NCBI GenBank assembly: GCA_021731365.1
Contig: JAKFXL010000013.1
Coordinates: forward strand, 1 to 64,000
Direction: 5' to 3'
Source of the DNA: Gammaproteobacteria bacterium
GTDB lineage: Bacteria; Pseudomonadota; Gammaproteobacteria; Tenderiales; Tenderiaceae
DNA length: 64,000 nt
Part shown: positions 4,634 through 63,750 of the stretch, in pieces
Numbering within the stretch: the first letter of the stretch is position 1
How the letters are laid out: every line of letters starts with the position of its first letter
Program-made: the position numbers and the translations under genes
Notes under the pieces: generated by a model
What the model saw: only the letters and a program-made list of their open reading frames with translations
Databases searched by the model: none
Told to the model about the DNA's origin: nothing

Positions 4634-4636
4634 CTG

Positions 4637-7717: not shown

Positions 7718-7741
7718 GGGTATAACCACTTTTTAAGGATG

Positions 7742-11087: not shown

Positions 11088-11156
11088 AAAATATTAAAGC
11101 GAACACCGCAGGCAAGTATGGGTGCAAGCAGCACAAGGCAAACAGTTTAGATGTGG

Positions 11157-11936
11157 TTATTTAAAACGATATGAAAACCTGGTGCTGTAGCTGATATCTG
11201 TCTGTTTAATGCTCTGTGGTGGATGGTTGTCATGGGTGACATCGAGCAAGAGTTTTAGATTCAGGTTGTCGGTCATCTTCACACTTAATCCCGCCTGTTC
11301 CAGGGCGCGGTAGTCTTGAGGGTTACTTAATCGTGGCTGGTAGTAGGTGGTGCTGATCAGGCTCAACTGGTTGTTAAGTTTGTGTTTGTAGACCAGATAG
11401 AGGTTGGCGCGGCTAAAACTTTCAGTACCGTGGTCGGTCAGTTTTACCCGTTCATCAAGTGTCTCTCGAGACCAGTAGAGACCGGTACCGAGGTACAACC
11501 CGAGCTGCTCTGCCGTCTCTGCCAGTGTGAAACGCAGGCCCCCTCCTATTAACCCGCGAAACGAGAGTCGGGAAAATCTGTTTTTTTCTGCCTGTGTAAA
11601 GATCTCCCACGCCTGCTTCGGCCTAAATTGAACAACGTGACGGCCATGGATAAAGCTTTTATCGGTATTGGTGACGTTGCGAACCTCCCCGTAGTCATAG
11701 GAAGCGACGATGAAGTTGGTGCTCTTGTCCCTGTTGTTCTGGATGCGACCGCTGATGTTGTATTCATCTTTGTCGGTATTGCCACGTTTACCACTGAGGC
11801 CGAGATCAAGACTGCCACTGACACCCGGTGTGGAGAGTCCAATACGGATGCTTTCAACATTGACGATGGCATTGGCGGGTACCAGGTAGCCGTAGCTGCT
11901 GATGAAGATAATGGCAGTGAGCGGGGTGTTTTTCAT
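11157..11936 (-). CDS. DUF481 (YdiY-like) outer membrane protein
   Basis: A 259-residue secreted protein. A signal peptide ends at about VPANA. The body has alternating strands typical of a small beta-barrel: SGSLDLGLSGKRGNTDKDEYNISG, the hallmark DUF481 opening with its GN(T/S) turn, is followed by repeated amphipathic strands. The last residues SYSTRFSYRFK resemble a C-terminal barrel strand, though it ends in Lys rather than Phe. The family is annotated as salt- or acid-inducible in enterics, but its function is open. No ribosome site is obvious before the ATG. It is convergent with the yciI-like gene. Confidence 0.8.
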   Translation of the reverse strand: MKNTPLTAIIFISSYGYLVPANAIVNVESIRIGLSTPGVSGSLDLGLSGKRGNTDKDEYNISGRIQNNRDKSTNFIVASYDYGEVRNVTNTDKSFIHGRHVVQFRPKQAWEIFTQAEKNRFSRLSFRGLIGGGLRFTLAETAEQLGLYLGTGLYWSRETLDERVKLTDHGTESFSRANLYLVYKHKLNNQLSLISTTYYQPRLSNPQDYRALEQAGLSVKMTDNLNLKLLLDVTHDNHPPQSIKQTDISYSTRFSYRFK

Positions 11937-12236
11937 GGTGGTGTTTAACTAGCTGTTTTGGCAGGGAAAAGCAAAATGAGTTTGTTGCGACAGGCCATTC
12001 TAACACTTTTTTAACATGGTTATTAGTGGCGCACCTCTCCCACATTTGACGATGAAGGCCGTTTATTCTGCATTGCATGTGGCCGACATTGATGCATTAA
12101 ACATGAATTTTACCGGTGTTGTTATTTATTTCATAGTGTACGAGTATGGTTCGGCTTGGCGTGGTTGTGTGTAGGTTAATACAGCAGGGGCGTGTGGTTT
12201 TACTCGATTTAAAATGGGATAAGTGGAGGAGTTAAA
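11937..12236. other. Intergenic region upstream of CHRD and DUF481 genes
   Basis: 300 bases without a supportable gene between two divergent genes for exported proteins. A GGAGG ribosome site occupies 12226-12230 for the plus-strand gene. I looked for a sigma-54 promoter near 12154 (TTGGCGTGG), but no GC pair sits at the correct spacing. Nothing else is clear. Confidence 0.4.
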
Positions 12237-12770
12237 ATGAATAATAAACGATTGGCAGGTTTGGCAACGGGCATGTTGATGTTGAGTATGGTGGGTGCGA
12301 CGGAGGCGAGTATTATTAGTTATTCGGCGACCCTGGACGGTTTGCAGGGAACAGCGCCTATTACAACGACAGGGATGGGAAGTATGGTCGGGACTTACGA
12401 TGATGTTTCGGGTGGTTTGACCTGGACGTTGAACTGGAGTGATCTGCTGGCTCCAGCAACAGCGGCCCACATTCATATTGCGCCGTCAGGATTTAATGGA
12501 CCGGTAGCGGTGACGATCCCTTCGGTGGCGGGATCGATGAGCGGCATGGTCAGCTCATCCACAACAATCACGATGTTACAGGCCGCAGACCTGTTGGCAG
12601 GAAACTGGTATGTGAATATTCACAGCAGCCAGTTCCCGGCGGGTGAAATTAGAGGACAGCTTTCTATTAACTCTGTGCCGGAGCCAACCACAGTATTGTT
12701 GCTTTCGATGGGGGTGGCGGGTCTGTTGGGTAGCCGTATGAGAAACAAGGGTGTTGCACACCCGGTGTAG
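12237..12770 (+). CDS. CHRD-domain protein with PEP-CTERM sorting signal
   Basis: A 177-residue exported protein. Residues 1-24 form a signal peptide. Residues ~27-145 are a CHRD domain with the characteristic AAHIHIAPSGFNGPV and the closing VNIHSSQFPAGEIRGQL. The C-terminus is a classic PEP-CTERM tail: VPEPTTV, a hydrophobic helix, then basic residues. PEP-CTERM proteins are processed by an exosortase/EpsH system and end up at the surface or in the extracellular matrix. No exosortase gene is in this window. CHRD domains occur in chordin and in bacterial surface proteins, and their bacterial role is not settled. A GGAGG ribosome site fixes the start. Confidence 0.92.
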   Translation: MNNKRLAGLATGMLMLSMVGATEASIISYSATLDGLQGTAPITTTGMGSMVGTYDDVSGGLTWTLNWSDLLAPATAAHIHIAPSGFNGPVAVTIPSVAGSMSGMVSSSTTITMLQAADLLAGNWYVNIHSSQFPAGEIRGQLSINSVPEPTTVLLLSMGVAGLLGSRMRNKGVAHPV

Positions 12771-12806
12771 TGAAGGTGTTTGGTGGCACTGGGTGGTGGG
12801 GACTGC

Positions 12807-13340
12807 TCAGTGCTGTTGTGCGATGTTTTTTTTCAGGATTTCGATGGTGAGGCCATCAGTCTTGGGTGTGCCAGCCCGCGCCGTTAGTGGATAGTCCATC
12901 CGTTCGCCGCTCTGTTTGTAACCACGGCGATTATAGAAGGCAATCAGTTCTCCTCGTGCGCTGATCACAGTCATCCATAACTGTCTGGCATTAAAATGTC
13001 TGATGGCGTGGTTTTCTGCGGCGGTTAAGAGTGCGCTGCCAACCCCGTTGCCTTGAAGGTGGGGGGCGACGGCAAACATGCCGATGTGGCTGATGGCCTG
13101 CTCCTGTTTGATGTGGACGCAGGCAACAGCAGTGGCTTGAATCAACCCCAATAATATAGTGGAGCAGGGTGCCTCGATCAGTGCAGTGACCTGTGCTGGC
13201 TCGATGCGATTACCCTCTATTAGATGGGCCTCGTGGGTCCAGCCGTAAGACTCCGCCTGTGGGCGGTAGGCGCTGTTAACCAGTTTGGTGATGGCGGTAG
13301 CATCTGCTGAGGTGGCGGTTCGGAAGGTCTCAAGAGCCAT
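12807..13340 (-). CDS. GNAT-family N-acetyltransferase
   Basis: A 177-residue acetyltransferase of the GNAT fold. The acetyl-CoA pyrophosphate-binding motif is HLQGNGVGSALLTAAE. Before it comes a central strand (SHIGMFAVAPH) and after it the QLWMTVISARGELIAFYNRRGYK segment that ends motif B. The acceptor substrate cannot be told from sequence. An AGGT ribosome site lies five bases before the ATG. It is convergent with the CHRD gene, 36 bases apart, and divergent from the FAD protein gene. Confidence 0.87.
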   Translation of the reverse strand: MALETFRTATSADATAITKLVNSAYRPQAESYGWTHEAHLIEGNRIEPAQVTALIEAPCSTILLGLIQATAVACVHIKQEQAISHIGMFAVAPHLQGNGVGSALLTAAENHAIRHFNARQLWMTVISARGELIAFYNRRGYKQSGERMDYPLTARAGTPKTDGLTIEILKKNIAQQH

Positions 13341-13512
13341 TGGTTACCTGATTTTGTGTGCATGGGCACGAGTTGTGGGTATTGGGCCGGTTGTCACCAT
13401 ACTAAACGTATGCATGGTTGCTTTTCTACTGCTGAAAGGGAGTGGGGCATTAATCTCCCTGACAGGGTAAAATGGGCCCCTTTTTGCCCTTGTGTGCCCT
13501 ACGGAACCTTCT

Positions 13513-15144
13513 ATGTTACGACTGACAGAAATTAAACTGCCGCTTGATCATTCGCCTGATGCACTGCGGGAGGCGGTTATTGACCGCTTGCAGATCAGCC
13601 CCGAGGCGTTGCATGGCTTCACGGTGGCCCGGCGTGGTTTTGATGCCCGCAAGCGCAGTGCGATTCTGTTTGTCTATTCACTCGATGTGGAGGTAGCGGA
13701 TGAGGTGCAGCTGTTGCAGCAATTTAGCGCTGATAGCCATATCAAACCGACGCCCGATACCGAATACACGTTTGTGACCCATGCCCCGAGCGATCTTAAG
13801 TCGCGCCCGGTGATCATCGGTACCGGCCCGTGCGGTTTTATGGCAGCACTGATTCTGGCGCAGATGGGGTTTAAACCACTGATCCTGGAGCGCGGCAAGG
13901 AGGTGCGGCAACGTACCAAAGACACCTGGGGGTTGTGGCGCAACCACAAACTTGATCCCGAATCGAATGTGCAGTTTGGCGAGGGTGGGGCAGGGACCTT
14001 TTCTGACGGCAAGCTGCATACCCAGATCAAAGACCCACGTCATCTGGGTGTAAAGGTATTGCGTGAGTTTGTGAAGGCGGGTGCGCCGGAGGAGATCCTG
14101 CACATCAGCAAACCCCATGTCGGTACCTTTCGTCTGGTGGGCATGTTGGAAAAAATGCGCGAGGAGATTGTCAGTCTTGGTGGTGAGTTCCGCTTTGAGA
14201 GCCGTGTGACTGATATCGACATTGATGATGGCCACGATCAAAAACAGGTGTGTGGCGTGGTGTTGGCCAGTGGTGAACGGATTGAGACAAATCATGTGGT
14301 GCTGGCGATTGGCCACAGCGCCCGCGATACCTTTCAGATGCTCTACGAGCGTGGTGTTTATGTTGAGGCCAAACCCTTCTCGATCGGTTTTCGTATCGAA
14401 CATCCACAAGCACTTATCGATCAGTGCCGTTATGGCACGTTTGCCGGTCACCCCGATCTGGGTGCGGCGGATTACAAGCTGGTGCACCACTGCAAGAATG
14501 GTCGCAGTGTTTACAGTTTCTGTATGTGCCCCGGCGGTACGGTGGTGGCGGCCACTTCGGAAGAGGGGCGTGTTGTCACCAACGGCATGAGTCAATACTC
14601 ACGTAATGAACGCAATGCTAACAGTGGCATTGTGGTGGGCATCACGCTGGAGGATTTCCCCAGTGATCATCCGCTGGCGGGTATAGAACTGCAACGCGAT
14701 CTGGAGTCACGGGCCTTTGTTCTGGGTGGCAGTAATTACGAAGCACCGGGGCAACTGGTGGGGGATTTTATCAAGGGTAAAGCCTCTACAGCGCTGGGCA
14801 GTGTGCAGCCCTCCTATACACCGGGTGTACATTTGACTGACTTAAGCTCGGTGTTGCCTGACTACGCCAGTGAAGCAATTCGTGAGGCGCTGCCTGTTTT
14901 TGATCGGCAGATAAAAGGGTTTGCCATGCATGATGCCGTGTTGACCGGGGTGGAGACACGTACCTCGTCGCCTATTCGTATTAAACGAAATCGTGATGAT
15001 TATCAGAGTCTCAATACCAAGGGGTTGTATCCAGCGGGTGAAGGGGCAGGTTATGCCGGTGGCATTCTCTCGGCGGCGGTGGATGGTATTGAGGTGGCCG
15101 AGGCAGTGGCGTTGAGTATGGTGAATAAATGTAGGGTGGGTTAA
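13513..15144 (+). CDS. FAD-dependent dehydrogenase of the COG2509 type
   Basis: A flavoprotein of 543 residues. An N-terminal alpha/beta domain (~1-95) precedes the FAD motif VIIGTGPCGFMAALILAQ and a Glu-ended strand (LILERGKE). Further marks are NVQFGEGGAGTFSDGKL, HVVLAIGHSARDTF and the C-terminal YPAGEGAGYAGGILSAAVDG, the usual final FAD contact. The reaction is not known; the family is listed as an uncharacterised FAD-dependent dehydrogenase. The ATG at 13513 (MLRLTEIKL) is preferred over 13492. The last codons CRVG and the stop are provided by an intergenic mobile repeat, so the native C-terminus has probably been altered. Confidence 0.88.
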   Translation: MLRLTEIKLPLDHSPDALREAVIDRLQISPEALHGFTVARRGFDARKRSAILFVYSLDVEVADEVQLLQQFSADSHIKPTPDTEYTFVTHAPSDLKSRPVIIGTGPCGFMAALILAQMGFKPLILERGKEVRQRTKDTWGLWRNHKLDPESNVQFGEGGAGTFSDGKLHTQIKDPRHLGVKVLREFVKAGAPEEILHISKPHVGTFRLVGMLEKMREEIVSLGGEFRFESRVTDIDIDDGHDQKQVCGVVLASGERIETNHVVLAIGHSARDTFQMLYERGVYVEAKPFSIGFRIEHPQALIDQCRYGTFAGHPDLGAADYKLVHHCKNGRSVYSFCMCPGGTVVAATSEEGRVVTNGMSQYSRNERNANSGIVVGITLEDFPSDHPLAGIELQRDLESRAFVLGGSNYEAPGQLVGDFIKGKASTALGSVQPSYTPGVHLTDLSSVLPDYASEAIREALPVFDRQIKGFAMHDAVLTGVETRTSSPIRIKRNRDDYQSLNTKGLYPAGEGAGYAGGILSAAVDGIEVAEAVALSMVNKCRVG

Positions 15145-41304: not shown

Positions 41305-43284
41305 ATGTCGAATGTGAAATATCTCTTTATCTTTTCCATCACCATTCTTCAAACATTTTTTGTACTGCCGTTCTTTACGGCTCTTCATGCGGAAACACTT
41401 TACGGCGTAGTATCCAACGGGGAAAATTCTGGATATCTCATCTCTGTCAATACGGTGACAGGTGCTGCAACCCCGATTGGCAATACAGGGATGAGTGGAC
41501 CTTCAGGGTTGACTTATAACACGCTGACTGGGGATCTATTGGCCATCAATGCCTTTGGTGGCGGTCAGGTTCGCCGTGTGGATACCGCCACTGGTGCGGC
41601 CACTGTGTTGGCAGCGGCGAGTAATCTGCCGACCCCCGGTGCGCTGGCTTATCGTGCTGCGGATAACATGCTCTACACTAATCAACCTGGTATCAGCACC
41701 AACGTCATCAAACGTCTTAATGCCTCGACTGGTGCAAGTGTGGATCTTATCGGTGTGGTGAATAAGGGGCCGATGGGTGGCATGGCCGTGCGCCCATCAG
41801 ATGGGGTGATATTTGGTGCAGGCAGTTGCGGGGTTGGTGCGGGTGATTGTCTCTTTACCATTTCTACCATCGCAGGCCCGCCGCCACGGGAGAGCGATGT
41901 GGGGACGACGGGGCGCATGATCACGGCGTTGAGTTTTCATCCCACCAGTGGTGTGTTGTATGGCAGTGATGGTAGCAATCTGGTGACTATCAATCCCGCT
42001 ACGGCGACCGTGACAACCATTGGCCCTTTTGGTGCAGAGGTTGGTTTTGTAGCGGGGCTTAGTTTTGCTCCTGATACAGGTGATTCAGTGGATGTCTGGA
42101 TCAAGGATTGTGCTGCTGATGTGGGCAATGTGCCATCACATCCCGCGCCGTGTCCACAGTACTACACCAGCCCTGATATCTGGATCGACAACAACAACGA
42201 TATGGTGATGGATGCACCGGTAGTGGGGGCTGACAATATTCTTCATGCGGTGGTTCGTAATCGCGGGACTAATGTCGCCACTAACGTGACGGCCAGTTTT
42301 TATTATCGTGACAATACTACCGGGCTTGTTTTTCCTGACGGTGCCACACTGATTGGTACCGACACGGTGACGGTGGTGGGTGGCAGTGGTGCGATTGCTT
42401 CTATTACCTGGCCTAACTTGCCAGCACCTCCGACGACGGGGGGCCATTGGTGTATTGGTGTGGTTTTGAATCATGCCAATGATGGGGCGATCACTCCGGT
42501 CGTGCCACCGTATGCGGATAATAATGTGGGCATTGCGAATATCTGGTTTATCGCTGGCCGTGCCGGTGAGGCGGTTGCGCTTGATTTTAATGTGGGCACA
42601 GGTGGTAAGTCGGGTTTTGGTTTGACGCCGTGGCCACGGGAGTTTCGTCTTGAAGTGGTTAACAGTTTGCCAGAAGGGTGGCGTTGGGCGTTGGCGGGTG
42701 TAGAGGCTGAGCAGCCTTTCTCGCTTAATCTTGGCGAAGAGCGTGCAGTGAAACTCAGCGTGACTGTTGCTGCCGATGCTATGCCCCATGTGGGTGGCTC
42801 CATCAGTGTTCGGCAGGTGGATGTGGTGACCGGCACGGTTTTGGGGGGTGTGAAATACGATCTTTATGAAGATAGTAAACCACCACAAGCGGTAGGTAAT
42901 GCACGTGTCTCACTGCTCGATGGCAAAGCGTTGTTGAGTTGGAACCCGGTGTTGTTCGAAGCGGATACTAATCTACCAGAACGGGTTGCCTATTATGAGG
43001 TGCTGCGTGATGGTGAGCCGTTGGTCAAGGTACTGCGTGATGAAGATCCAGAAAAGTCGGGTATGCAGTGGACCGATCCGGAGGTACTGACCAAAACGAC
43101 ACGTTACGCAGTACGTGTGGTGGATGAGGGGGGGAATATATCAATACCATCGCCTGAAATGGTGGTTGAGATAACAGCGGTTGATGTGCCAGAGCCACCG
43201 CTCTTTAATTGGCTGACATGGCTGTTATTGGTATTGCTGGTGGTATTGCTGGTACTGGCAATAAAACGAAAGTCTGAACCTTGA
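41305..43284 (+). CDS. Membrane-anchored surface protein with propeller-like and CARDB-like domains
   Basis: A 659-residue exported protein. The signal peptide is MSNVKYLFIFSITILQTFF and onward, cut near LHA. Residues ~35-255 form repeated beta segments with GLTYNTLTGDLLAI-type motifs, likely a beta-propeller. Residues ~260-410 hold a cysteine-bearing region and a CARDB-like adhesion domain (NILHAVVRNRGTNVATNVTASFYY). A fibronectin-like part follows (~540-620). The end is VPEP, a long hydrophobic helix and KRK: like PEP-CTERM, but the helix is longer than usual, so a plain membrane anchor is also possible. A perfect AAGGAG six bases before the ATG sets the start. It precedes the large NHL protein. 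Confidence 0.8.
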   Translation: MSNVKYLFIFSITILQTFFVLPFFTALHAETLYGVVSNGENSGYLISVNTVTGAATPIGNTGMSGPSGLTYNTLTGDLLAINAFGGGQVRRVDTATGAATVLAAASNLPTPGALAYRAADNMLYTNQPGISTNVIKRLNASTGASVDLIGVVNKGPMGGMAVRPSDGVIFGAGSCGVGAGDCLFTISTIAGPPPRESDVGTTGRMITALSFHPTSGVLYGSDGSNLVTINPATATVTTIGPFGAEVGFVAGLSFAPDTGDSVDVWIKDCAADVGNVPSHPAPCPQYYTSPDIWIDNNNDMVMDAPVVGADNILHAVVRNRGTNVATNVTASFYYRDNTTGLVFPDGATLIGTDTVTVVGGSGAIASITWPNLPAPPTTGGHWCIGVVLNHANDGAITPVVPPYADNNVGIANIWFIAGRAGEAVALDFNVGTGGKSGFGLTPWPREFRLEVVNSLPEGWRWALAGVEAEQPFSLNLGEERAVKLSVTVAADAMPHVGGSISVRQVDVVTGTVLGGVKYDLYEDSKPPQAVGNARVSLLDGKALLSWNPVLFEADTNLPERVAYYEVLRDGEPLVKVLRDEDPEKSGMQWTDPEVLTKTTRYAVRVVDEGGNISIPSPEMVVEITAVDVPEPPLFNWLTWLLLVLLVVLLVLAIKRKSEP

Positions 43285-43380
43285 GTGTTGGTATAGCACT
43301 GTAGAAAAAAATGCGTCAGCGATGAGAGAGTGTCGGTTATTTGTGGTGCAGTGAGTTGAATTAATTTGAAGGAGGAGTGT

Positions 43381-46300
43381 ATGCCCACCCCCATCATCCA
43401 GCGTCTCAGCCCCACCTCCGGTTGGCCCGGTGGTACTGCAGCCGATGGTTCAGCGATCAACGGTACACTGGTCATCATTCATGGCCGCCATTTTCACCCC
43501 ACGGCGGATATGCATCTTAACCGAGTGAGCTTTACCGCCTCGGCGGGTGGCACGGTGCCGGCGCCGGTGGTGTGGGCCTCGGTCAACGAGATCGACTATC
43601 AGCCCAATGGCATTGTTGCCAGTGATGCCGCAGTGTCGGGTGGGCTTGATGGACCGCGTGGTGTGACGGTGAACAGCAGCAGTGGTGATCTCTACATTGC
43701 CGATACCGAGCAGGATCGCATTGTGCGTAGAACAGCGGCGGGTGCCTTCAGTAGCTGGGGCGGCACAGGCGCAGGCAATGGCCAGTTTAATCGTCCCACC
43801 GGCATTGCTGTTGATCAGAGTGGCAATGTTTATGTCGCCGATACCATGAATCACCGTATCCAGAAGTTCAGCGCCACGGGTGGATTCATCACGGCGTGGG
43901 GTTCACACGGCAGTGGTGTTGGCCAGTTTGATATGCCGGTGGATATTGATGTGGCGCTGATCGGCGGCATGAGCTTTGTCTATGTCGCCGACAGTAACAA
44001 CCATCGTGTCGCCCGCAGTGATGGCGTCGGCAATATGCCAACGCAGCTGCTGGCGCCGGCCGATTGCGGCCGCATTCTTGGCGTTTGTGCGCCGCGTGGT
44101 TACGGCTTTGTCTACGCCACCGATCCTTCCAACAGACGTATCTACCGCTGGGCTTGGACGGGCGCTTTCAACGGTTACTTCGGTGATCCCGGTCCGCACA
44201 ATTTGGCGGTGGTGGAGGTCGGTTATCCGCTGGGTATCGAGCAGGACTACGATGGTTATGTCTACATCACCGATAACGCTGGGCGGGTGGTGCGCAAGTT
44301 TGATCCCTTCGATCCAACCTTTCGTGAAATTGCCAAGTTTGGTCTGACCATCCCCAGCGTGCCGGGGCCGACACCACCACAGGAGTTTGTCGATCCGGTG
44401 GATGTAACGGTGACCGATCTCAAGGCGGTCTACGTGGTGGACCGGCAGCGCAAACAGGTGGTGCGTTACACACCCACCGATTCGCAAGAGCTATGGGTGC
44501 ATGTGCCGGCCGGTGCGGCGACCGGCAGTGTGCGGGTGCGCACCGATGAGGGTGAGCAGAGTGCAGGGTTTGTAGTGTTGCAACGGGCGCAGGTAGAGGT
44601 GGCCGATACCTATCTCACCCAGGGGCTATCGCAGTATCCGTTAGTGGCGGGCAAAAAAACTATGATCCGTTATCAGATGCGCACCGTCGGCGAGGCCGTC
44701 ATGGAGAGTTTCTCCTGGGGTTCACCGGTGCATGACAGCGCGCTCTGTCGTGTTTACAAAGATGGTGCCGAAGTTGCTCAGATGCAGGGTGAGGTGGAGT
44801 ACCTCACCATGAGCGGTGGTTTCATGGGTTCAGCAATCGCCTTTGAGATCCGTTTTGAAATCCCCCACTGGATAATCAACGATCAGGCCAGCTATCGTTT
44901 TCGCGTCACACTGCAACGCAGCGGTACACCGGCCTTTAACGATACCCGCGACTTCCCCAGCGCTGCCGGCGTTACTTTCCATAATCGCATGAGCTATCGC
45001 ATCATCGCCTCGCCCGTGACTCACCTACGCCACGATGGCGCTCGTGTTGGTAGCAGCTCTATGTGGCCAGCGCTATTTTATCTTGGCAGCAACGTTGGCC
45101 ACATGCTCGACTGGATGGACTGGTCGCAGCTCTACAGTGGCTTTGTGCACTACAACCGTCTTTATCCGTTGCGTCACAGTGTTGCCAACATTGTGGAGTG
45201 GGGCATCTGGGTCAACGGCACCATGCACAACGGCATCAACAGCGATGACGAGGTGCGCGACATGCTGGCGGTGCTGGAATATACCCGTCGCGATATCAAT
45301 GAAGGCAGCGGCGAGAATTACGACTTCATGCTTGGCATTGTTGATCGTAACGAGATTGCGGCATCCCAGGATTGGGTCGGTATCACCAGTGATTCCTACC
45401 GTTCAGCACTCATCTCCGTTGGTGATAATTCTGCCGGTGATCCGGCCTACGATGTCGGTGCCATCATCGCCCATGAGTTATTGCATCAGCACGGCATCCA
45501 TCATCAGGGCGACCGCGAACGGGCGCAGACGGACGAGGAGGCGTGGAACTCGGTTAGTGGTAATTTTATTTATGATCCGGTGACTTTGGCCTATGTCTCC
45601 ACCACTGGTTTTCGTACCTATGAGTGGAATGACGAGACCGCCTTTGCCGAAGGGCGTCACGATGGTGTTGATGGCAGTTATGACCAGCTCTACGACGCGC
45701 TGGCCAATCCCCATCCAGTGAGTGTGCGGGTGCGCGAACGGGCACTCAAAGAGGCAGAGCGGCCCGTGGACACGCCAAAAAATTTCACCCTGATTGGTCA
45801 CTACAGCCGTGCCGACGGTTTTGTTCGTATCGCTTCGTGGGTGGGCCGTGGTGATTCACCAGTGACACCCGAGGTGAGTGATGGTGAAGGTGTGCTGATC
45901 TTTATGGATAACAGTGGCCATGAACTGTTGCGTTGGCGGATGCGGTTTTCATTTGGTCTGCGTGGTGTGAGTCGTAGCGGACATGCAACTACCACAGGCG
46001 CAGGCAGTGCCACGGTGAGTATCACCTGTCCCTATCCGGCCACCACTGCTCGAGTAATTATGGAGGCGGACAAACAGGCTGTGTGGCAAGCCGATGTGCC
46101 AAGCACCGGGCCAACGGTGCAGCTGATCACACCGACAGGCGGCGAGCAGATCGCACCGACGGATACCGTTGTGGTTGAGTGGCAGGCGAGTCATGCACAA
46201 GATGTGGAACTGGAGTATCGCATCTCGTACTCCAGTGATGGTGGAAAAACTTTTCGCCCCATTGCCGTAGCGCTTAAAGAGCGACGTTACGAGTGGCAGC

Positions 46301-47355
46301 TGGGTCTCGGCGCCAGCACTGGCCGCATCCGGTTGCGGGTGGTTGCCAGTGATGGTTTCAATCAGGCGGAATCTATCTCCGATGATATTTTGGTGGGCGA
46401 CGTGGCGCGCCGTATTGCCATCCTCCAACCACGTCGTGGTGAGGTGATCCCCGAAGGTAAGGCGCTGCGCCTCACGGCCCTGGCCAACGATCTGGAGCAG
46501 GGGGCGTTGCCACTCACGCCTGCCAACAGCCGTTGGCTGCTCGATGGTGAAGTGGTGTTGGGCAGCGGTAATGAGATCGAAATAAAAGAGATCGAACTCA
46601 CCACACCATGCGGCACCGTTACCACACCACTGCCTGTGGGTGCACATCTGCTGAGTGTTGAGTTGACACTCGGTGCGGATAAAATACTGCGTGATGAGAT
46701 CCCCATCGAGATCGCCGCCGATAGTGATCGCGACGGTGTGCCCGATGATGTCGAGATTGCCCAGGGTACCGACCCCAATGATCCGGGCAATCGTTCCACC
46801 ACTGCGCCAATCTACCCCTTTGGGCAATGGCGCTTCCGCCGCTGCCGCAATCACACGCTGTTCCAGATCGGCCATCTGCTGACAGGCACGGTTGCCATCG
46901 AACTTGGTTTCATTGATGAGGCCGGTATGCCACTGGCAAATCACACATTGCAACTAGTGCGTGGCGCTACACGCACAACCGTCATAACAGGTAACGATGG
47001 CATAGCGCGTATCGAGATGGATTCGCTGCAAAGTGTATTGATAAAAGTGGCCGCCAATGACAATCGCAACAGCGCCTTTGGTAGCTGTTATCTGCGTGTT
47101 GCCAAGGGTTCACCACTCACTGAAACCATCATTCAGGCGCACGCCTGGATCAGCCGCCAACGTGGCTGCTGGTGGTTGGGGCGTGAATCACAAGGTACGA
47201 TCATGATCAACGCAGGCAATCCGTTGTCGATTCGTGGTGTAAAAATATGGCAGGGTTCGTCACCAAAAATGGTTTCACCTAAGCTGAGCTATCGCCTGTT
47301 GGGGAGGTTGCAGATGGCAACAAAACGAATCAGTATAAAAATGGTGGATCACTAA
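43381..47355 (+). CDS. Giant NHL-repeat protein with metzincin-like zinc motif
   Basis: A protein of 1,324 residues with no signal peptide (starts MPTPIIQRLSPTSGWPGG). Order: IPT/TIG-like domain (~1-65); about six NHL repeats forming a propeller (~70-370, e.g. NRPTGIAVDQSGNVYVADT); beta domains (~395-560); a metalloprotease-like region with HELLHQHGIHH (~698-708), an exact HEXXHXXGXXH; Ig-like domains (~900-1100); a thrombospondin-3-like calcium segment (DSDRDGVPDDVEIAQGTDP, ~1112); and a C-terminal beta domain. In the likely Met-turn (YDALANPHPVS, ~772) Leu replaces Met, so activity is doubtful. AAGGAGGAG lies just before the ATG. It is followed by a terminator and a D15-like barrel gene. 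Confidence 0.82.
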   Translation: MPTPIIQRLSPTSGWPGGTAADGSAINGTLVIIHGRHFHPTADMHLNRVSFTASAGGTVPAPVVWASVNEIDYQPNGIVASDAAVSGGLDGPRGVTVNSSSGDLYIADTEQDRIVRRTAAGAFSSWGGTGAGNGQFNRPTGIAVDQSGNVYVADTMNHRIQKFSATGGFITAWGSHGSGVGQFDMPVDIDVALIGGMSFVYVADSNNHRVARSDGVGNMPTQLLAPADCGRILGVCAPRGYGFVYATDPSNRRIYRWAWTGAFNGYFGDPGPHNLAVVEVGYPLGIEQDYDGYVYITDNAGRVVRKFDPFDPTFREIAKFGLTIPSVPGPTPPQEFVDPVDVTVTDLKAVYVVDRQRKQVVRYTPTDSQELWVHVPAGAATGSVRVRTDEGEQSAGFVVLQRAQVEVADTYLTQGLSQYPLVAGKKTMIRYQMRTVGEAVMESFSWGSPVHDSALCRVYKDGAEVAQMQGEVEYLTMSGGFMGSAIAFEIRFEIPHWIINDQASYRFRVTLQRSGTPAFNDTRDFPSAAGVTFHNRMSYRIIASPVTHLRHDGARVGSSSMWPALFYLGSNVGHMLDWMDWSQLYSGFVHYNRLYPLRHSVANIVEWGIWVNGTMHNGINSDDEVRDMLAVLEYTRRDINEGSGENYDFMLGIVDRNEIAASQDWVGITSDSYRSALISVGDNSAGDPAYDVGAIIAHELLHQHGIHHQGDRERAQTDEEAWNSVSGNFIYDPVTLAYVSTTGFRTYEWNDETAFAEGRHDGVDGSYDQLYDALANPHPVSVRVRERALKEAERPVDTPKNFTLIGHYSRADGFVRIASWVGRGDSPVTPEVSDGEGVLIFMDNSGHELLRWRMRFSFGLRGVSRSGHATTTGAGSATVSITCPYPATTARVIMEADKQAVWQADVPSTGPTVQLITPTGGEQIAPTDTVVVEWQASHAQDVELEYRISYSSDGGKTFRPIAVALKERRYEWQLGLGASTGRIRLRVVASDGFNQAESISDDILVGDVARRIAILQPRRGEVIPEGKALRLTALANDLEQGALPLTPANSRWLLDGEVVLGSGNEIEIKEIELTTPCGTVTTPLPVGAHLLSVELTLGADKILRDEIPIEIAADSDRDGVPDDVEIAQGTDPNDPGNRSTTAPIYPFGQWRFRRCRNHTLFQIGHLLTGTVAIELGFIDEAGMPLANHTLQLVRGATRTTVITGNDGIARIEMDSLQSVLIKVAANDNRNSAFGSCYLRVAKGSPLTETIIQAHAWISRQRGCWWLGRESQGTIMINAGNPLSIRGVKIWQGSSPKMVSPKLSYRLLGRLQMATKRISIKMVDH

Positions 47356-47474
47356 ACTGATAACGGCACCGTTTTTATGTGTCACAATCAGCGGCATCCC
47401 TTTTGTTGAAGATGGCTATGCCGAAAATTCACGAATTTATTCAACGGATCATATTTTTGGTTTTGTATCTCTGC

Positions 47475-47506
47475 CCCACCTGCTAAGTTGTAAGTGGGTT
47501 TTTTTT
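47475..47506 (+). terminator. Terminator after the giant NHL gene
   Basis: CCCAC (47475-47479) pairs with GTGGG (47494-47498), and eight T bases follow directly. The stem is short, but the T-run is strong. Confidence 0.6.
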
Positions 47507-47613
47507 GGATTAGTTGTTCGTGGTTTCAGGCGCAATGGAAGATATAATTACAGTTGTTGTAAAAAACACTCAAGGGATGGCAAGCAGATATTAGTTTAGT
47601 TGGTGGGGGGGTT

Positions 47614-48918
47614 ATGTTCACTGTTTTAAATTTTTTTTTAGTAACGTTCTGTCTGTTTATCATCGCTACTCCGTCGGTAAGTGCTGCGGAAAAAAAAGAC
47701 GCGTCTGAAGTGGATGCTATGTTTTTTTCCTCCCTTCCTGATCGTCGCAAAGAGCAGTTTTCAACCAGTCCCGGTTACGCGCTGTTCCCTTACCCATACA
47801 GTCTTCCCGGTGTTGGAAAAGGCCTCAGTGTGGTGGGCGGTTCTATGAATATCGCCAATACACATACCGATGGTTATGGTGTGATACTGGGTGGAGAGGT
47901 GAAGGGGGTGGCCGTGGGTATGTCTGACATCCACATTATTCCACGCACGTTGATTTTAGATGTTGGCTACAGCGATATAAACAAGGCGCAAATTATGAGC
48001 TACAGCCAACGTGGCATGAGTTCTGACAAGAATGATTACCGCCTGCTTGATCTCAACGATGTGGTTTACTACGGCGGCAGAATGACGGCCACATTTTTTG
48101 AGCGCCGTTTTGAACTGTATGGTGGGTGGTACAAGGGCGCTACGCAGTTGAATAACATCCGTGATAAAGACGGCAACATTATTGTTGCGGCACAGGACTC
48201 ACCACGTGAGTGGGGCCATACTACCCTTATTGGTAGCCGCCTTGATCTTACCGATGACTATGCCGATCCGCGGCGCGGAGTCAGCCTTAGTATTACCCGC
48301 TCCTCAACACCGCCCAGCGATTCTGGCCCGGACTACTACGTGATGGATTACAGCATGAGTGCCTACCTGCCCATCGGTAAGCGTAGCACTTGGGCTTTTA
48401 ATTTATTACGCTCTGATGCGGTTGTTAGCCAGAAAGGTGAAACCGATCCGACCAAACTTCAAGATCAGCAGGGGATTAACTGCGCTGATACTTCACTCAC
48501 ATCGTTAGCCCGGCAATATTGCACTGAAGTGCTCAATAATATGATCGCAAATAATACCTACGGTACGGCTAGTGTCCTGGGTGGGTTCAGTCGTCTGCGT
48601 TCCTATCCACAAGGCAGATACAGTGGTGCCCACACCCAGTTCTATGGTACGGAGGTGCGTTGGAATCTCACTGATGAGTCCACACCCTTTGATATTTTTG
48701 TGATGAAGGATATTCGCACAGCAATACAGCTGGCAGCGTTTTATGAGTTAGGCAGCACTGCCGATTTGCGTGGCGACGTGGGTGATATCTGGAAACAGTC
48801 GTACGGTGTTGGGTTCAGGATGGTGACAGCCTCGGGTGTCGTATTTAGGGGTGATTTTGCGTACGGAGATGATGGCTTGGCGCAACAGATATTTATTGGT
48901 TATCCCTGGGAGCTTTAA
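47614..48918 (+). CDS. BamA/TamA-like (D15) outer membrane barrel protein
   Basis: A 434-residue exported protein with a signal peptide ending at SVSAA (~24). The rest looks like a 16-strand surface-antigen (D15/Omp85) barrel: repeated amphipathic strands, a RLDLTDDYADPRRGVSLSI segment, and LGGFSRLRSYPQGRYSG, equivalent to the conserved VRGY/LRGF loop motif with the inward Arg. There are no POTRA domains before the barrel, so it is not BamA itself. It ends GYPWEL rather than in Phe. It follows the signal-less giant protein, though a terminator separates the two. It could export or anchor a surface protein, but that is inference. Confidence 0.82.
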   Translation: MFTVLNFFLVTFCLFIIATPSVSAAEKKDASEVDAMFFSSLPDRRKEQFSTSPGYALFPYPYSLPGVGKGLSVVGGSMNIANTHTDGYGVILGGEVKGVAVGMSDIHIIPRTLILDVGYSDINKAQIMSYSQRGMSSDKNDYRLLDLNDVVYYGGRMTATFFERRFELYGGWYKGATQLNNIRDKDGNIIVAAQDSPREWGHTTLIGSRLDLTDDYADPRRGVSLSITRSSTPPSDSGPDYYVMDYSMSAYLPIGKRSTWAFNLLRSDAVVSQKGETDPTKLQDQQGINCADTSLTSLARQYCTEVLNNMIANNTYGTASVLGGFSRLRSYPQGRYSGAHTQFYGTEVRWNLTDESTPFDIFVMKDIRTAIQLAAFYELGSTADLRGDVGDIWKQSYGVGFRMVTASGVVFRGDFAYGDDGLAQQIFIGYPWEL

Positions 48919-50119: not shown

Positions 50120-50706
50120 CTGCCGGGGCACTCCCCCAGGTTTGATCTATACGGCGGTCATTGTGAATCTGGCGTCTCTGCCAAGAGAACGAGGGTCACA
50201 ATGAAAGAGTATCAAGGTCTGAGTCATACGCGTTGGGATTGTAAGTACCAGGTGGTGTTTATCCCCAAACGACGAAAGAAGCGTATTTCTGGAGTGTTGA
50301 GGCGGCATCTTGGAGAGATATTCCATGAGCTGGCAAAACACAAGGAATGTAAGATTGTTGAGGGTCACCTGATGGGTGATCATGTCCATATGTGTCTGAG
50401 TATTCCACCGAAGTATGCAGTGTCGAACGTGGTGGGGTATATCAAAGGCAAGAGTGCCATTCAGGTGGCTCGTAAGTTTGGTGGTCGTGAAAGAAATTTC
50501 ACAGGCGAAAATTTTTGGGCGAGGGCTACTTTGTTTCGACAGTGGGGCTTGATGAGGCGATGGTAAGGGCCTACATCAAGAACCAAGAGATGGAAGATGA
50601 GCGCTACGACCAGATGAAGCTCGGAGTGTGATCAACCACCTTGGGCGGTTCACGGTTTAATGGGACCTTTGAGGCGCTCACCCAATAAGCCCCCGGCTAT
50701 GAGGGG
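50120..50706 (+). mobile_element. IS200-type insertion sequence, probably inactive
   Basis: The extent is approximate. A single Y1/HuH transposase gene (50201-50631, frameshifted) is flanked by short subterminal hairpins and no terminal inverted repeats, as in IS200. On the left are GGGGCACTCCCC near 50122 and TGGC-GTCTCT-GCCA near 50169; on the right, CCCC...GGGG at about 50691-50706. The right end abuts the broken oleate hydratase fragment. Confidence 0.6.
50201..50631 (+). pseudogene. tnpA: IS200/IS605-family TnpA transposase, frameshifted
   Basis: The start MKEYQGLSHTRWDCKYQVVFIPKRR is the standard opening of IS200-type Y1 transposases. The HuH pair is in GDHVHMCL (His codons near 50381-50389). 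At about 50523 a GGG run replaces the GGGG needed to continue; the intact frame gives WARGYFVSTVG and then VRAYIKNQE with the catalytic Tyr at 50572. In the actual sequence the frame shifts and stops at 50566, so the Tyr is lost. The restored protein would be about 143 residues, normal for the family. Confidence 0.85.
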
Positions 50707-51024: not shown

Positions 51025-52467
51025 TTATGGAGCAGGCTGTGTAACCGTATTCATGATCAACGTAACCGCTGTCTGTGCTAATAATCGGCCATTAACCGTT
51101 GCACCTGTATTAACAGTAACACCTTTTGCAGCAAGGACCACTCCTTCAAAGACGGCACCTGTATCAATGGCGACACCGGCTCCGCCGGCAACCTGCCAGA
51201 AGACATTCTTCGCAAGAGCACCGCCCGTCAAAAAGACGTTGGTGGCGCTTGCTTGAGTAACGTTCCCTGCGACCTGGAAAATCCAGACATCATTCGGGCC
51301 ACCTGAGAGGGTGACATCAGTATTGATCAAAACATTGGTACCCCATTTGTAAAGACCGGGGACCAGTGTCTTGCCGCTAATATCACCTGCGTGTAGTTCA
51401 GTGTAATCAGGGGTTATTCTGCCTGCGGCATCGTTATAGGCGGTTCCCATATCGAGCACCGCGTTGGCGACCAGTGTATTGTCAGGTGCCGTCCCTTTAA
51501 AGCAGGGGGTAGTACCGCTGCCGACATAGGCTGCATTAGCCCCGTAGATTGTGCCTGTTATTTCTGTACAGGTAATGTTATTCATCGCTGCAGCGGTGAT
51601 CGGGCTGGCACCAATGTTACCGGTGATAGCCGATGTCGGAACGTTGGTGATGCCGGTTTTTGTCAGGATCACAAAGTTTCCCGCGGTTCTCAGATTTACT
51701 GCAGCAGGTCCAACAGCAAGGGCGGAGCCGGTAGTAAAGCTCCAGACAATGTTAGCCGCCAGTGGATTTGCAGGCAATGCAGGGTCGGTAATGGCCGTTG
51801 TTAGCGTAACGGTATAGAGGGTATTAGCAACGAGATTGTTAGCCGGTTTAAAGGTCGCTACCTTGTTGTTGTAGACAACCGTACCTGCAACTAATGCGGC
51901 ACCCTTTCTCAATGTAAAGCTCGATGTGTTAACGGTAGCCGGGTCAAGTGCTTCACTGAAGGTGGCACTAACGTTGCCATTAAGTACAAAACCAGTGACT
52001 GCATTTGCTGGATTGCTAGAGATGATAGTAGGGGCGACAGCATCTGTTGTTGTGCCGCTGGTAAAGTGCCAAACATAATCGTTTGCCAGCGCTATACCCG
52101 ATGAGCTTTTTACCTTATTGGCAAGCGTGGCGGTGTAGAGTGTATCCGCTGTAAAGCTGCTGCCTGGGGTGAAACTCGCAGTATTGGATGCAGCATCAAG
52201 GCTTACAACACCAGTTAACGGAGGTTCGCCCGCGCCCACTACTGTAAAGCTTGTAGTATCAATTGTTGATGTATCCATTGCTTCACTGAAGGTGGCAACC
52301 ACTTTGTTGTTGAGAGCCACAGCTATTGGGGTGTCTGCCGGAGTGGCATCGGTCACCGTGGGTGCGCTGTCACTACTGCTGTTCCCGTTACATCCCGCCG
52401 CAAAGGTGGTCAGCAAGAGTGCAGTTAGCCATAAACTTCGCTTAGTATATTTTTTGCATCGATTCAT
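51025..52467 (-). CDS. DUF3494 ice-binding-family lipoprotein with two Ig-like domains
   Basis: A 480-residue exported protein. The signal peptide ends at a lipobox (TFAAGC), so it should be lipidated. Two Big_5-type Ig-like domains follow (~37-140 and ~145-250; ATFSEAMDTSTIDTTSFTV and ATFSEALDPATVNTSSFTL). Residues ~258-478 are a DUF3494 domain, a right-handed beta-helix that in some species binds ice: AGNFVILTKTGITNVPTSAITGNIG, GLYKWGTNVLINTDVTL, and the closing ITLNTGATVNGR-like block. Ice binding has been shown only for some members. GGAG lies eight bases before the ATG. It is divergent from a second DUF3494 gene. Confidence 0.9.
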   Translation of the reverse strand: MNRCKKYTKRSLWLTALLLTTFAAGCNGNSSSDSAPTVTDATPADTPIAVALNNKVVATFSEAMDTSTIDTTSFTVVGAGEPPLTGVVSLDAASNTASFTPGSSFTADTLYTATLANKVKSSSGIALANDYVWHFTSGTTTDAVAPTIISSNPANAVTGFVLNGNVSATFSEALDPATVNTSSFTLRKGAALVAGTVVYNNKVATFKPANNLVANTLYTVTLTTAITDPALPANPLAANIVWSFTTGSALAVGPAAVNLRTAGNFVILTKTGITNVPTSAITGNIGASPITAAAMNNITCTEITGTIYGANAAYVGSGTTPCFKGTAPDNTLVANAVLDMGTAYNDAAGRITPDYTELHAGDISGKTLVPGLYKWGTNVLINTDVTLSGGPNDVWIFQVAGNVTQASATNVFLTGGALAKNVFWQVAGGAGVAIDTGAVFEGVVLAAKGVTVNTGATVNGRLLAQTAVTLIMNTVTQPAP

Positions 52468-52998: not shown

Positions 52999-53844
52999 AT
53001 GAAAATATACAAACAGTTGTCGATCCTGTCGTTGGCAGTGATGGGGGTGTTTTACGACGCTACCCCAGTAATGGCGATGCCACTACTGGGAACGGCACAG
53101 AGCTTCGCGGTTTTGGGACAGTCGACAGTGACCGATACCGGTCCGACTACCCTCTGGGGCGATCTGGGTCTCTACCCGGGGACTTCGATCACTGGCACGG
53201 GGAGCATCACTCTTAATAGGGGAACGATACACCAGACTGATGCGGCCGCGCAGCAGGCTCAGCTTGACGCCCGCACTGCATACAACACTCTTTTTAACCT
53301 GCCGTATGCTGTTGACCTGACGGGCCAGGATCTGGGTGGACTGACACTGCAACCGGGCGTTTATCATTTTGATACCTCGGCTCAACTGACTGGAACGCTC
53401 ACCCTTGATGCTCTAAACGACCCCTATTCACTTTTTGTATTTCAGATCGGCACCACACTCACGACTGCAAGCAGCTCGGTTGTCAGCATGATCAATGGTA
53501 ATGCAAATAGCGGCGTGTTTTGGCAGGTCGGCAGCTCCGCAACGCTAGGCATCAGCACACTGTTTGCAGGAAATATTCTCGCGGATCAGAGCATCACCTT
53601 GAATACAACGGCAAGTATTCTGTGCGGTAGGGCCATTGCACTAAATGCGGCGGTAACAATGAATACCAACACCATTGCTAACGACTGTGTTGCCTACGCT
53701 AACGATACCGGTGGAGCCACTCTTGTCGACTACGGTAGCGGCGGTTTCAGTGGTGGTGGTCTGTCCGTTCCCGAGCCAGCCATACTGGCACTGCTGGGAA
53801 TGGGAATTGTGGGACTTGCATTTGGTCGACGTCAGCGCAGTTAA
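52999..53844 (+). CDS. DUF3494 ice-binding-family protein with PEP-CTERM tail
   Basis: A 281-residue exported protein. The signal peptide ends near PVMA (~27). The DUF3494 domain spans ~30-228: [60 protein letters not shown], and [24 protein letters not shown]. The C-terminus is VPEPAIL, a hydrophobic helix and RRQR, so it should be processed as a PEP-CTERM protein. Such proteins may act as adhesins or bind ice. Its anchor differs from its divergent lipoprotein relative, whose domain is also fused to Ig repeats. Confidence 0.92.
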
Positions 53845-57777: not shown

Positions 57778-59373
57778 TTAGGGGGTTGTGTAACGCTCAA
57801 TCAAGGTATTGGTGAAGTCCACATTACCAACGGCCCACATATCATTGGCGGTTACCCGGGCAATACCGAATAACTGGCTGGTATTGGCGCTGGGATCAGG
57901 GCTGGCAACAATGCGCCAGGTAGAGCCATTCCAGTGCAGTATCTCGGTGAAATAGGTGTAGCGGGTAAAATCGCCGGCCCCTGGGGAGCTGCGTAACCGT
58001 GTGCCGGTGGCCCAGATGTCGTTGCTGGCATTGGCACTAATCCCGTACAGGCGGGTAGTGTCACTGAAACGGGTGTCGTTAGGCGATGGGCTGGCTACCA
58101 CACTCCATGTGCTGCCGTTGTAACGTAGTGTTAATGGTCCTGTGCCGCTGTAACCGACAGCCCAGATATCATTGGGTGCGACTACTGTGATGGCGTTCAG
58201 ACTGCTGTTGGCCAAAGTGGGCAGGTTAACCACGCGCCATGTATTGCCATCCCAATTCATGATTAAGGCTTGGTTGTCAGCACTGCCAACGGCCCAGACG
58301 TTGTTGGTGGATACGGCAGCAATGCCTTGTAGCCGTGATTGGGTACCTACGGTGGGTGTGGGGACTGGACTCCAGAATCCGCCATTCCAGCGTCCTGCCA
58401 GCGGTTGTTCAAAATAGTTGGTGCTGGCACCGGAGTAGGAGCCTACGGCCCAGGCGTCGGTTGAGGATAGGGTTGATACGGCATATAGCTGAGAGGCTGC
58501 ATTGGGCACATCAGGGCCGGGTACGTGGAGCCAGCTGGCCCCGTCCCAATGTAGAACCAGACTGCGGTTATTGGTGACGGTGGTGCTGTTGAGTACACCG
58601 ACAGCCCATATGTCGCTTGTTGATGTGGCGGCGATGCCATTGAGTTCATTACCGGTGGTGGATGGATTGGGTGCAGGTATGACGTTCCAGGCGGCACCGT
58701 TCCAGCGTTCAATGAGGGTATTGCGGTTGGAGCTGTTCAGGCTGCTGGTTACCCCCACTGCCCAGACCTCATTGGCATTGATTGCGGTGACGGCACGTAG
58801 GGTATTGTTGGCATCTGTGCCATTAGGGCTGGGCACGACAGACCATGTCCCGGAGACTGGCGGCGGTGGTGCAATACCATCATCGGCGTAGATTTCAAGC
58901 TCATTTAGACGGATGCGCTGGCTGTTGTTGTTCCATGCACGTGATGTCATTCGTACGTAACGTGTATTGACTGCGCTGAAGTTGATAACGTCGGTGCCGC
59001 CATTTTCAGAGCTAACACTATAGACGGTCGACCAGTTGAAATTATCCTGGGATATTTCAATCGCATACTGCGTGGCGTAATAGGTGTTCCAGTTTAATAC
59101 CACACGGCTGATGTTGATGCTGTTGCCCAGATCGACGCTGATTGACTCTGTAAACAGGGTACTTCGTGATTTGGTACGCCAATAGCTGGCGGTATTGCTG
59201 TCGACTGCTTTATCACCCTTTGTGGCGTTGTTATAAAACGATGAGACTGTGGTGAGTTTGTTCAATGCGACGTTAGACCCTGTAGGTGCGGCATAGCCGG
59301 CTGTGGCAAATGTCGCCAGCGCCAACGCTATCCCTGCAATCCGTTTTTGACTGACTGGTGTGAATGGACTCAT
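57778..59373 (-). CDS. Secreted discoidin-domain protein with seven-repeat propeller
   Basis: A 531-residue exported protein. The signal peptide ends near AGYA (~28). Residues ~32-165 form an F5/8 type C (discoidin) domain: NVALNKLTTVSSFYNNATKGDKAVDSNTASYWRT and the closing RIRLNELEIYAD. Residues ~175-530 hold seven repeats of about 50 residues, each with a WNG..W block and a (D/V)xWA(V/T)G block: NEVWAVG, SDIWAVG, TDAWAVG, NNVWAVG, NDIWAVG, NDIWATG, NDMWAVG. Seven such repeats suggest a seven-bladed propeller. No C-terminal sorting tail is seen. The protein may bind carbohydrate. CAGGAG lies seven bases before the ATG. Confidence 0.87.
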   Translation of the reverse strand: MSPFTPVSQKRIAGIALALATFATAGYAAPTGSNVALNKLTTVSSFYNNATKGDKAVDSNTASYWRTKSRSTLFTESISVDLGNSINISRVVLNWNTYYATQYAIEISQDNFNWSTVYSVSSENGGTDVINFSAVNTRYVRMTSRAWNNNSQRIRLNELEIYADDGIAPPPPVSGTWSVVPSPNGTDANNTLRAVTAINANEVWAVGVTSSLNSSNRNTLIERWNGAAWNVIPAPNPSTTGNELNGIAATSTSDIWAVGVLNSTTVTNNRSLVLHWDGASWLHVPGPDVPNAASQLYAVSTLSSTDAWAVGSYSGASTNYFEQPLAGRWNGGFWSPVPTPTVGTQSRLQGIAAVSTNNVWAVGSADNQALIMNWDGNTWRVVNLPTLANSSLNAITVVAPNDIWAVGYSGTGPLTLRYNGSTWSVVASPSPNDTRFSDTTRLYGISANASNDIWATGTRLRSSPGAGDFTRYTYFTEILHWNGSTWRIVASPDPSANTSQLFGIARVTANDMWAVGNVDFTNTLIERYTTP

Positions 59374-61557: not shown

Positions 61558-63750
61558 TTAAGCGTGACGTTGACGCCGTGCCAACAATAGACCGCTGAGT
61601 GTCAACAACCACCATGGGTTAACAGTTCCACCACCGCCACCGGAAAGTGCTGAGCCGCCAAAGTTGCTGGTTGGGTTTGCGTTGACATCGACAACCGTAT
61701 CTTCCGTCACACGATTGTTGCCAAGGAAGGCATCGGGTGTGGTGCTTTTAACCCCCGCTTCGGCAGTGATGGTGGTCGGTTTTGTAAACTCTCCTGTGAC
61801 ATTGCCAGTGACAAACAGCTCCACCCGTCCCAGCCCCGGCAGGGTGACCATACGGCACTCCAAAATACCCCGGCCATCAGGGAATGGGTCGCAGTCGGGT
61901 TGTGCTGTGGTGGAGGTGGTAGTGCGCTTGGTGAATACAAACTGGGGCGGTAGTTTGACCTCCAGGATTACTCCGGTGGCGGAGGCGTTGACATAGACAT
62001 TGGTCAATACAATTTTATAGGTCAGTGGGCTGAGTGGGTCGTTGGGCTTGATGGGGTCAGCCGTGTCGCTGATGACCAGCTTCAGGTCGACATAGCTGTT
62101 CTGCTGGGATATGGATGCGCCAAATTCGTAGGCACCGATATCACAGCGCCCATCTGTTCTTTGCAGAAAACGCTGGTCTACCTGGGGGCAGAGGCTGCCA
62201 TTGCCATGGTCGATGGCGTCACTGCCAAAGAGCAGTTTGTGTATGGGCATTGTCTCCGGGAATTTTGGATCAACCGCCAGGACGCTATCGAGGCCCAGAT
62301 TGGGTGAGTTGACAATATCCGGGGTGCCGACGGTTCGGATGGCGATAAAACCACAACTGTCACTACTTTCCAGGTTGCCACCGGAGGAACGAATCAGGTT
62401 TTTATAGCTGACCGGGGTAGTGGTACCTGAACAGGCGGTGGTGGCAGAGTTGCTATCAATGCCATCGGCGATAATGGTGTTTGCGATAGTCACGCTGGGG
62501 CTGGAACCGGCATCACGACCAAACACCGCCAACTGGTTACCCCCCACCGACCCATTTTCAGCCGGTGCATTGACATCAAAGCTCCCCTGACAGCTGGGGC
62601 AGGGGTCAGATCGATTATTATAGATGGTGGTGTTGGTAAGACTGATACCACGACTATTGAATATGCCACCACCACTGCGCCCTTCATTACTGCTGATAGT
62701 GGTATTGATGATATCCATGTTACCCAAGGCTGAGTTATAGATACCACCACCATCATAGATGGACCTGTTTTTACTGACGGTGGAGTTGGTCAGTGTAAAT
62801 GGACTTTCGTTGTGGATACCGCCGCCAAACTGGTTTGCAGTGTTGAGGTTGATCTGTGTATTACTGACAATCACGTTACCCAGATTTAACCCCAGGTCAG
62901 TACTGGCAATCCCCGCCCCCAGGTTGGCGGTATTGTTGGTGATGAAGGAGTTCCCCACATTGAGATATCCACCCATGTTACGGATGGCCCCGCCGTTAGA
63001 GGTACCACCACGGTTTTCAATCAGGGTGCTATTGCGGATTTCAACGGTGCCAAGATTGGTTATCCCACCGCCACCAGGGCCTGAGTTTTTCTCAAACCGT
63101 GAGTCCTTGATGGTGGCTTTGGCCAGTGCGTCAATGTAGATACCGCCGCCGGTGAGTATGAAACTGGTGTCACCGATCAGCTCGTTGCGTGTCAGGGTGA
63201 CACTTTCAAGGGTCAGGTCACTTGACCCTTCGACCAAAATGCCTGCCCCGCCGGGGATTTGGCCCTTAGGGACAACGGTGCTGGGGGAAATATTGGTATA
63301 ACCGTTAGTGATGGTGAGGTTTCTCAGGGTAACCTTGGCACCATTCTGAATATGCAGAACGCGGTCGATTTTATTGGCATTAATGGTGCGTGTATTGCCA
63401 TTACCGATGATGGTCAAACTATCACTGATATCAAGATCGCCGGTTTTACCGGCATTTTCGAAGGTACCGGTTTGCGTTAAAAAGACGTCAGAGTTCAGGG
63501 TGATGGTATCCGCACCAATAGTGGTGTTGGCCAGCTGTATGGCTGCACGTAGCGTACATTGACGGTCAGCGATGGTGGAGGCACAGGTACTGGTATTGCC
63601 GGAGATCTGTGGTGCATCCGCGCTGCTGTTGACGGTGATGTCCAGGCTGTAGCCTACACTTGGCACGGCTAACATAATGAGCGAAGCGAGCAATATCAAC
63701 GGTTTGCTGTGAGGCGCGGGTTGATGGCGGTGACGTATGTGGTTGCTCAT
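61558..63750 (-). CDS. CSLREA-type beta-helix surface protein with GlyGly-CTERM-like tail
   Basis: A 730-residue exported protein with a signal peptide ending near VGYS (~36). A CSLREA-type N-terminal motif (DRQCTLRAAIQLAN) is followed by a right-handed parallel beta-helix (~105-450) with many short repeats such as GGGIHNESPFTLTNSTVSKN and GGGIYNSALGNMDIINTTIS. A DUF11-like Ig domain (~555-690) follows. The tail is SGGGGGTVNPWW, a hydrophobic segment and ARRQRH, which resembles the GlyGly-CTERM signal processed by rhombosortase rather than PEP-CTERM. It may be an adhesin. The start ATG at 63750 has no clear ribosome site. Confidence 0.87.
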   Translation of the reverse strand: MSNHIRHRHQPAPHSKPLILLASLIMLAVPSVGYSLDITVNSSADAPQISGNTSTCASTIADRQCTLRAAIQLANTTIGADTITLNSDVFLTQTGTFENAGKTGDLDISDSLTIIGNGNTRTINANKIDRVLHIQNGAKVTLRNLTITNGYTNISPSTVVPKGQIPGGAGILVEGSSDLTLESVTLTRNELIGDTSFILTGGGIYIDALAKATIKDSRFEKNSGPGGGGITNLGTVEIRNSTLIENRGGTSNGGAIRNMGGYLNVGNSFITNNTANLGAGIASTDLGLNLGNVIVSNTQINLNTANQFGGGIHNESPFTLTNSTVSKNRSIYDGGGIYNSALGNMDIINTTISSNEGRSGGGIFNSRGISLTNTTIYNNRSDPCPSCQGSFDVNAPAENGSVGGNQLAVFGRDAGSSPSVTIANTIIADGIDSNSATTACSGTTTPVSYKNLIRSSGGNLESSDSCGFIAIRTVGTPDIVNSPNLGLDSVLAVDPKFPETMPIHKLLFGSDAIDHGNGSLCPQVDQRFLQRTDGRCDIGAYEFGASISQQNSYVDLKLVISDTADPIKPNDPLSPLTYKIVLTNVYVNASATGVILEVKLPPQFVFTKRTTTSTTAQPDCDPFPDGRGILECRMVTLPGLGRVELFVTGNVTGEFTKPTTITAEAGVKSTTPDAFLGNNRVTEDTVVDVNANPTSNFGGSALSGGGGGTVNPWWLLTLSGLLLARRQRHA

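Follow-up and report, generated by a model that had tools for sequence, protein, structure and literature searches.

It is a long-standing puzzle that some large proteins consist of extracellular-type modules yet carry no export signal. TIG, Ig-like and TSP3 modules are characteristic of proteins that are exported. The cargo of extracellular contractile injection systems (eCIS) is leaderless. Literature searches retrieved neither leaderless NHL proteases nor eCIS with TIG domains. The Omp85 superfamily includes the translocators TpsB and PlpD, and for its noNterm subfamily a role in membrane-protein assembly has been proposed only (PMC4104836).

The window analysed is the whole 64,000-nucleotide stretch of contig JAKFXL010000013.1, assigned to a gammaproteobacterium of the family Tenderiaceae. 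An ORF scan located three large neighbouring genes on the forward strand, at the coordinates given in a preliminary description that had suggested a linked export or display system. The genes and their features are the following:

41305–43284, + strand: ORF1, 659 aa from an ATG with a ribosome-binding site
43381–47355, + strand: ORF2 (the giant), 1,324 aa, with the ribosome-binding site AAGGAGGA just 5′ of the ATG
ORF2 residues 1–80: TIG-like part (weak Pfam TIG match)
43621–44535, + strand: NHL-repeat propeller, ORF2 residues 81–385 (PF01436, E 1.3e-22; PDB NHL matches)
ORF2 residues 531–760: zinc-peptidase-like region
45472–45504, + strand: HELLHQHGIHH zinc-binding motif, ORF2 residues 698–708 (HELLHQHGLHH in the homolog at locus L017)
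ORF2 residues 906–1105: Ig-like part (weak Pfam Big_7 match)
ORF2 residues about 1114–1135: TSP3 (weak Pfam match)
ORF2 residues 1146–1324: unclassified C-terminal domain
47478–47507, + strand: terminator-like hairpin and its T run, in the ORF2–ORF3 gap
47614–48918, + strand: ORF3 (the barrel), 434 aa, with a signal peptide

An alternative upstream ATG at 41272 would extend ORF1 to 670 aa. ORF2 and ORF3 are separated by a gap of 258 nt. The terminator that had been noted before the last gene was found there as a hairpin at 47478–47499, followed by a T run; terminator-like sites are weak by count (10 found versus 7.5 expected in shuffles), and this one is well placed.

A full-length homolog of the giant is encoded in the Gammaproteobacteria MAG D100SM.bin.19 from a hydrothermal vent (L017, positions 10001–13999). 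By its sample name, D100SM, the MAG fits a study of hydrothermal chimneys on the Southwest Indian Ridge (PMC9174799). Comparison of the two giant genes gave a dN of 0.19 and a dS near saturation (about 2), with a dN/dS of about 0.1. ORF2 is a real coding sequence, since it is 73% identical to this independent full-length homolog at such a low ratio, which shows strong purifying selection on the gene. The identity between the giants is highest in TSP3 (88%), the NHL propeller (83%) and the peptidase-like region (80%), and lowest in residues 761–905 (56%) and at the C-terminus (64%). The giant is a rare protein. Relatives of residues 404–907 were not found in 10 other genomes of the family, 273 of the class and 398 of the phylum (the samples overlap), and the non-NHL part had no matches in plasmids, phages (searched with residues 404–1324) or viral contigs. 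Matches at other loci were limited to the NHL propeller, and the PADLOC and PHROGs searches likewise gave NHL-level matches only.

The giant had been described as lacking a signal peptide, and this holds in both species. In the window, an in-frame TGA at 43357–43359 shuts the ORF2 frame 8 codons 5′ of its ATG, hence an upstream signal peptide is impossible. Transmembrane hydropathy was reached by no 19-residue window of ORF2. The L017 giant is leaderless too; its open frame starts four codons 5′ of the ATG, and neither a signal peptide nor a transmembrane segment was found.

The sequence HELLHQHGIHH, overlooked in the preliminary description, corresponds to the HExxHxxGxxH signature and thus has the zinc motif of metzincins. 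In 20,000 shuffles of the giant at constant composition, the signature never appeared. Pfam peptidase hits at the motif are weak and all to metzincins, namely Reprolysin_4 (E 0.014), Reprolysin_2 (E 0.11) and Astacin (E 0.06–0.17). Their scores stay below the cut-offs of the curated models (at best 15.5 bits versus 22 for Reprolysin_4, and 13.4 versus 22.5 for Astacin), and the peptidase-model matches to the giant rest largely on the motif itself. Weak PDB matches at the motif included a reprolysin-type enzyme, archaemetzincin and meprin, plus unrelated chains. The Met-turn of metzincins was not found in the window giant, which has no Met in residues 709–841, the first one being residue 842; Met 777 of the L017 homolog is not common to it. 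Residue E720 (EAWNS), 18 residues past H702, is invariant in both giants, and no gluzincin model matched; the sequences leave it open as a candidate gluzincin-type third ligand. The AF2 model of residues 404–907, built from two sequences, has a pLDDT of 34, which is too low to judge a zincin fold. In view of the metzincin matches below cut-off, the absent Met-turn and E720, the name putative zinc peptidase, and not metzincin, suits the giant best. That the motif is conserved says little by itself, because the family has two known members at 73% identity.

ORF1 has a Sec-type N-terminus, an N-terminal half with DUF6923/DUF4394 propeller-like matches, and weakly matched CARDB and NEW3-like domains. 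The VPEP tail ascribed to it is present with all its elements (VPEP, a hydrophobic stretch and KRK) but falls short of the PEP-CTERM models, as no match was obtained with PF07589 or the NCBIfam models. An exosortase gene is located on contig C26 of the source genome (PF09721, E 5.8e-68). We predict that ORF1 is exported by Sec, is anchored in the membrane by its C-terminus and is a surface protein of the propeller type. Elsewhere in the window, two divergent ice-binding proteins (PF11999) are encoded at 51025–52467 (− strand) and 52999–53844 (+ strand), one with two Big_5 domains and one with a PEP-CTERM tail; the latter gene product matches PF07589 at 8.8e-6, unlike ORF1. The − strand also encodes two surface-type proteins, an F5/8 type C protein matching a Rax2-like propeller (57778–59373) and a DUF11 protein (61558–63750).

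The L017 locus connects ORF1 with the giant. An 87-codon ORF at L017 5063–5326, about 5 kb upstream of the giant, matches ORF1 residues 19–64 with 49% identity (blastp E 1.9e-8) and has the same GTTCGATATG start region. In the 3.7-Mb genome as a whole, ORF1 has no match but this relic. The presence of a truncated ORF1 relic upstream of the L017 giant means that the two genes are evolutionarily linked. Beyond ORF1 or its relic and the giant, no orthologous neighbours are common to the two loci. Upstream of the L017 giant lie genes for a 388-aa leaderless protein and a 978-aa vWA protein; the former (L017 8463–9629), directly upstream of the giant, looks papain-like, with QANWGGAACC close to its N-terminus, and has no Pfam match. 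Most simply, the order of ORF1 followed by the giant would be ancestral to both loci, with ORF1 later truncated in L017. As the loci share only these two genes, ORF1 and the giant have probably moved together. Our verdict from these comparisons is that ORF1 and the giant are a putative two-gene module beside an unrelated barrel, with the linkage coming from one relative.

The characterisation of ORF3 as a POTRA-less Omp85-type barrel is borne out by 16 predicted strands, a TamA/BamA fold match and the lack of a POTRA hit. The AF2 model, built from 13 sequences (pLDDT 81), features 16 barrel strands, as in noNterm proteins. The first strand, at 54, follows the signal peptide after about 30 residues, with no POTRA or other N-terminal domain. 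The best Foldseek matches in the PDB are TamA and BamA, with E about 1e-10 and a probability of 1.00, at TM-scores of only 0.4–0.55. Strands 11 and 12 are joined by a long loop, which carries LRSYPQGR in the place of the Omp85 L6 motif; at the position of (V/I)RG(F/Y), the relatives mostly have LRAYP or LRSYP. Residues R327 and R329 are invariant in the 13 sequences. The best curated model, NF047779, matches ORF3 partially and below its cut-off (E 1.2e-10). Downstream of the barrel lies a gene-poor stretch with an IS200-like (Y1) transposase ORF (50201–50566), possibly frameshifted near its end.

Homologs of ORF3 were detected in 11 of the 229 genomes of the class sample, near full length in four besides the source genome. 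No homolog was found in the L017 genome, a MAG of unstated completeness. In other genomes, the neighbours of the barrel include a Big_5 lipoprotein (L067), a subtilase (L068), a multihaem cytochrome (L076), purE/purK-type genes and others, and neither the giant nor ORF1 was found beside it. One same-class genome (G111) contains seven noNterm barrel paralogs in different neighbourhoods (L068, L069 and L072–L076). A single system of three genes, with the barrel as translocator or display factor for the giant, agrees with their consecutive arrangement on one strand, with the occurrence of the translocators TpsB and PlpD in the Omp85 superfamily (PMC4104836) and with the large exported-type proteins near the barrel in a few genomes (L067, L068 and L076). 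This is nevertheless highly improbable: the one other genome with a giant lacks the barrel, the contexts of the barrel vary and often contain housekeeping genes, a terminator-like site and the intergenic gap precede ORF3, and the giant has no signal of the kind needed for a periplasm-facing translocator. For the barrel, the system was rejected in view of the barrel's absence from the L017 genome and its unrelated neighbourhoods elsewhere. What stands of the suggested export or display system is the linkage of ORF1 and the giant, whose neighbourhood is kept in one relative; none is conserved for the barrel. ORF3 is judged to be a stand-alone noNterm Omp85, probably with a separate role in outer-membrane assembly or translocation, and not the exporter of ORF2. 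The three-gene reading is thus corrected, with the barrel placed as a stand-alone member of a poorly studied group.

Our preferred reading, held with middling confidence, is that the giant is a leaderless zinc-peptidase-like enzyme whose binding modules lie to either side and which is released without Sec, with ORF1 as its partner anchored at the surface. The catalytic-type region, with HExxHxxGxxH, would lie between a TIG/NHL front end and an Ig/TSP3 back end. Target binding would fall to the propeller and Ig domains and cleavage to the zinc site, and the giant would get out of the cell without Sec or be freed by lysis. Catalysis, localisation and export of the giant are what we infer. The giant may instead be a pseudo-enzyme, serving as an adhesin or scaffold, with the motif being a non-peptidase metal site or a chance resemblance. 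The lack of a family model at cut-off and of a Met-turn suits this reading, and with two sequences only the conservation of the motif is not strongly informative. However, the motif is very unlikely by composition, sits in a better-conserved part of the protein and draws weak peptidase matches that are consistently metzincins; we regard a pseudo-enzyme as unlikely.

The route out of the cell also admits other readings. A giant that is never exported, for example an intracellular protease or scaffold, would explain why neither species has a signal peptide, a transmembrane segment or room for an upstream signal. Its TIG, Ig-like and TSP3 modules and its genetic linkage with the Sec-exported, anchored ORF1 make a cytoplasmic protein doubtful, though. 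Another reading makes the giant a cargo or accessory of an eCIS, which handles leaderless proteins. The source genome does contain an eCIS locus, cut by the contig end (L093, positions 1–8674; G000 contig C19), with genes for Pvc16_N, sheath, two gp19 tubes, CIS_tube, GPD hub and base_V spike. Yet it lies on another contig, unlinked to the window, Pvc16_N occurs without the giant in five other genomes of the family, and the L017 genome, a MAG of unstated completeness, gave no Pvc16_N match. Because the locus is unlinked and Pvc16_N is not matched in L017, eCIS delivery stays a minority reading and a very improbable one. It is also quite improbable, if less remote, that the giant is the founding member of a new family, one of leaderless multidomain zinc peptidases with a non-Sec exit, possibly via an eCIS, and with ORF1 as the surface partner. 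Export and activity are directly testable, as the giant is conserved in two species, is under selection and has a zinc-peptidase signature.

Compared with known systems, the giant resembles the metzincins Reprolysin_4, Reprolysin_2 and Astacin in its HExxHxxGxxH motif and in the weak profile matches centred on it. It differs from them in scoring below the cut-offs, in having no Met-turn and no signal peptide, and in the placement of the region between an NHL propeller and Ig/TSP3 modules. The propeller itself (residues 81–385) is similar to those of ScyF (NF035926) and of teneurin/TRIM-type NHL proteins. The giant scores 99.2 bits with the ScyF model versus a cut-off of 350, and it adds TIG, peptidase-like, Ig and TSP3 parts to the propeller, without a signal or PEP-CTERM tail. 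The end of ORF1, with VPEP, a hydrophobic stretch and KRK, resembles the PEP-CTERM/exosortase signal (PF07589), and the genome encodes an exosortase; ORF1 differs in matching neither PF07589 nor any NCBIfam model. ORF3 is similar to noNterm Omp85/TpsB proteins (PMC4104836) in consisting of the barrel only, with 16 predicted strands, a long loop in the L6 position and the TamA/BamA fold. The ORF3 group is set apart from them by its LRSYP/LRAYP motif and by a conserved N-terminal DRRKxQF...PYSxPGxG stretch.
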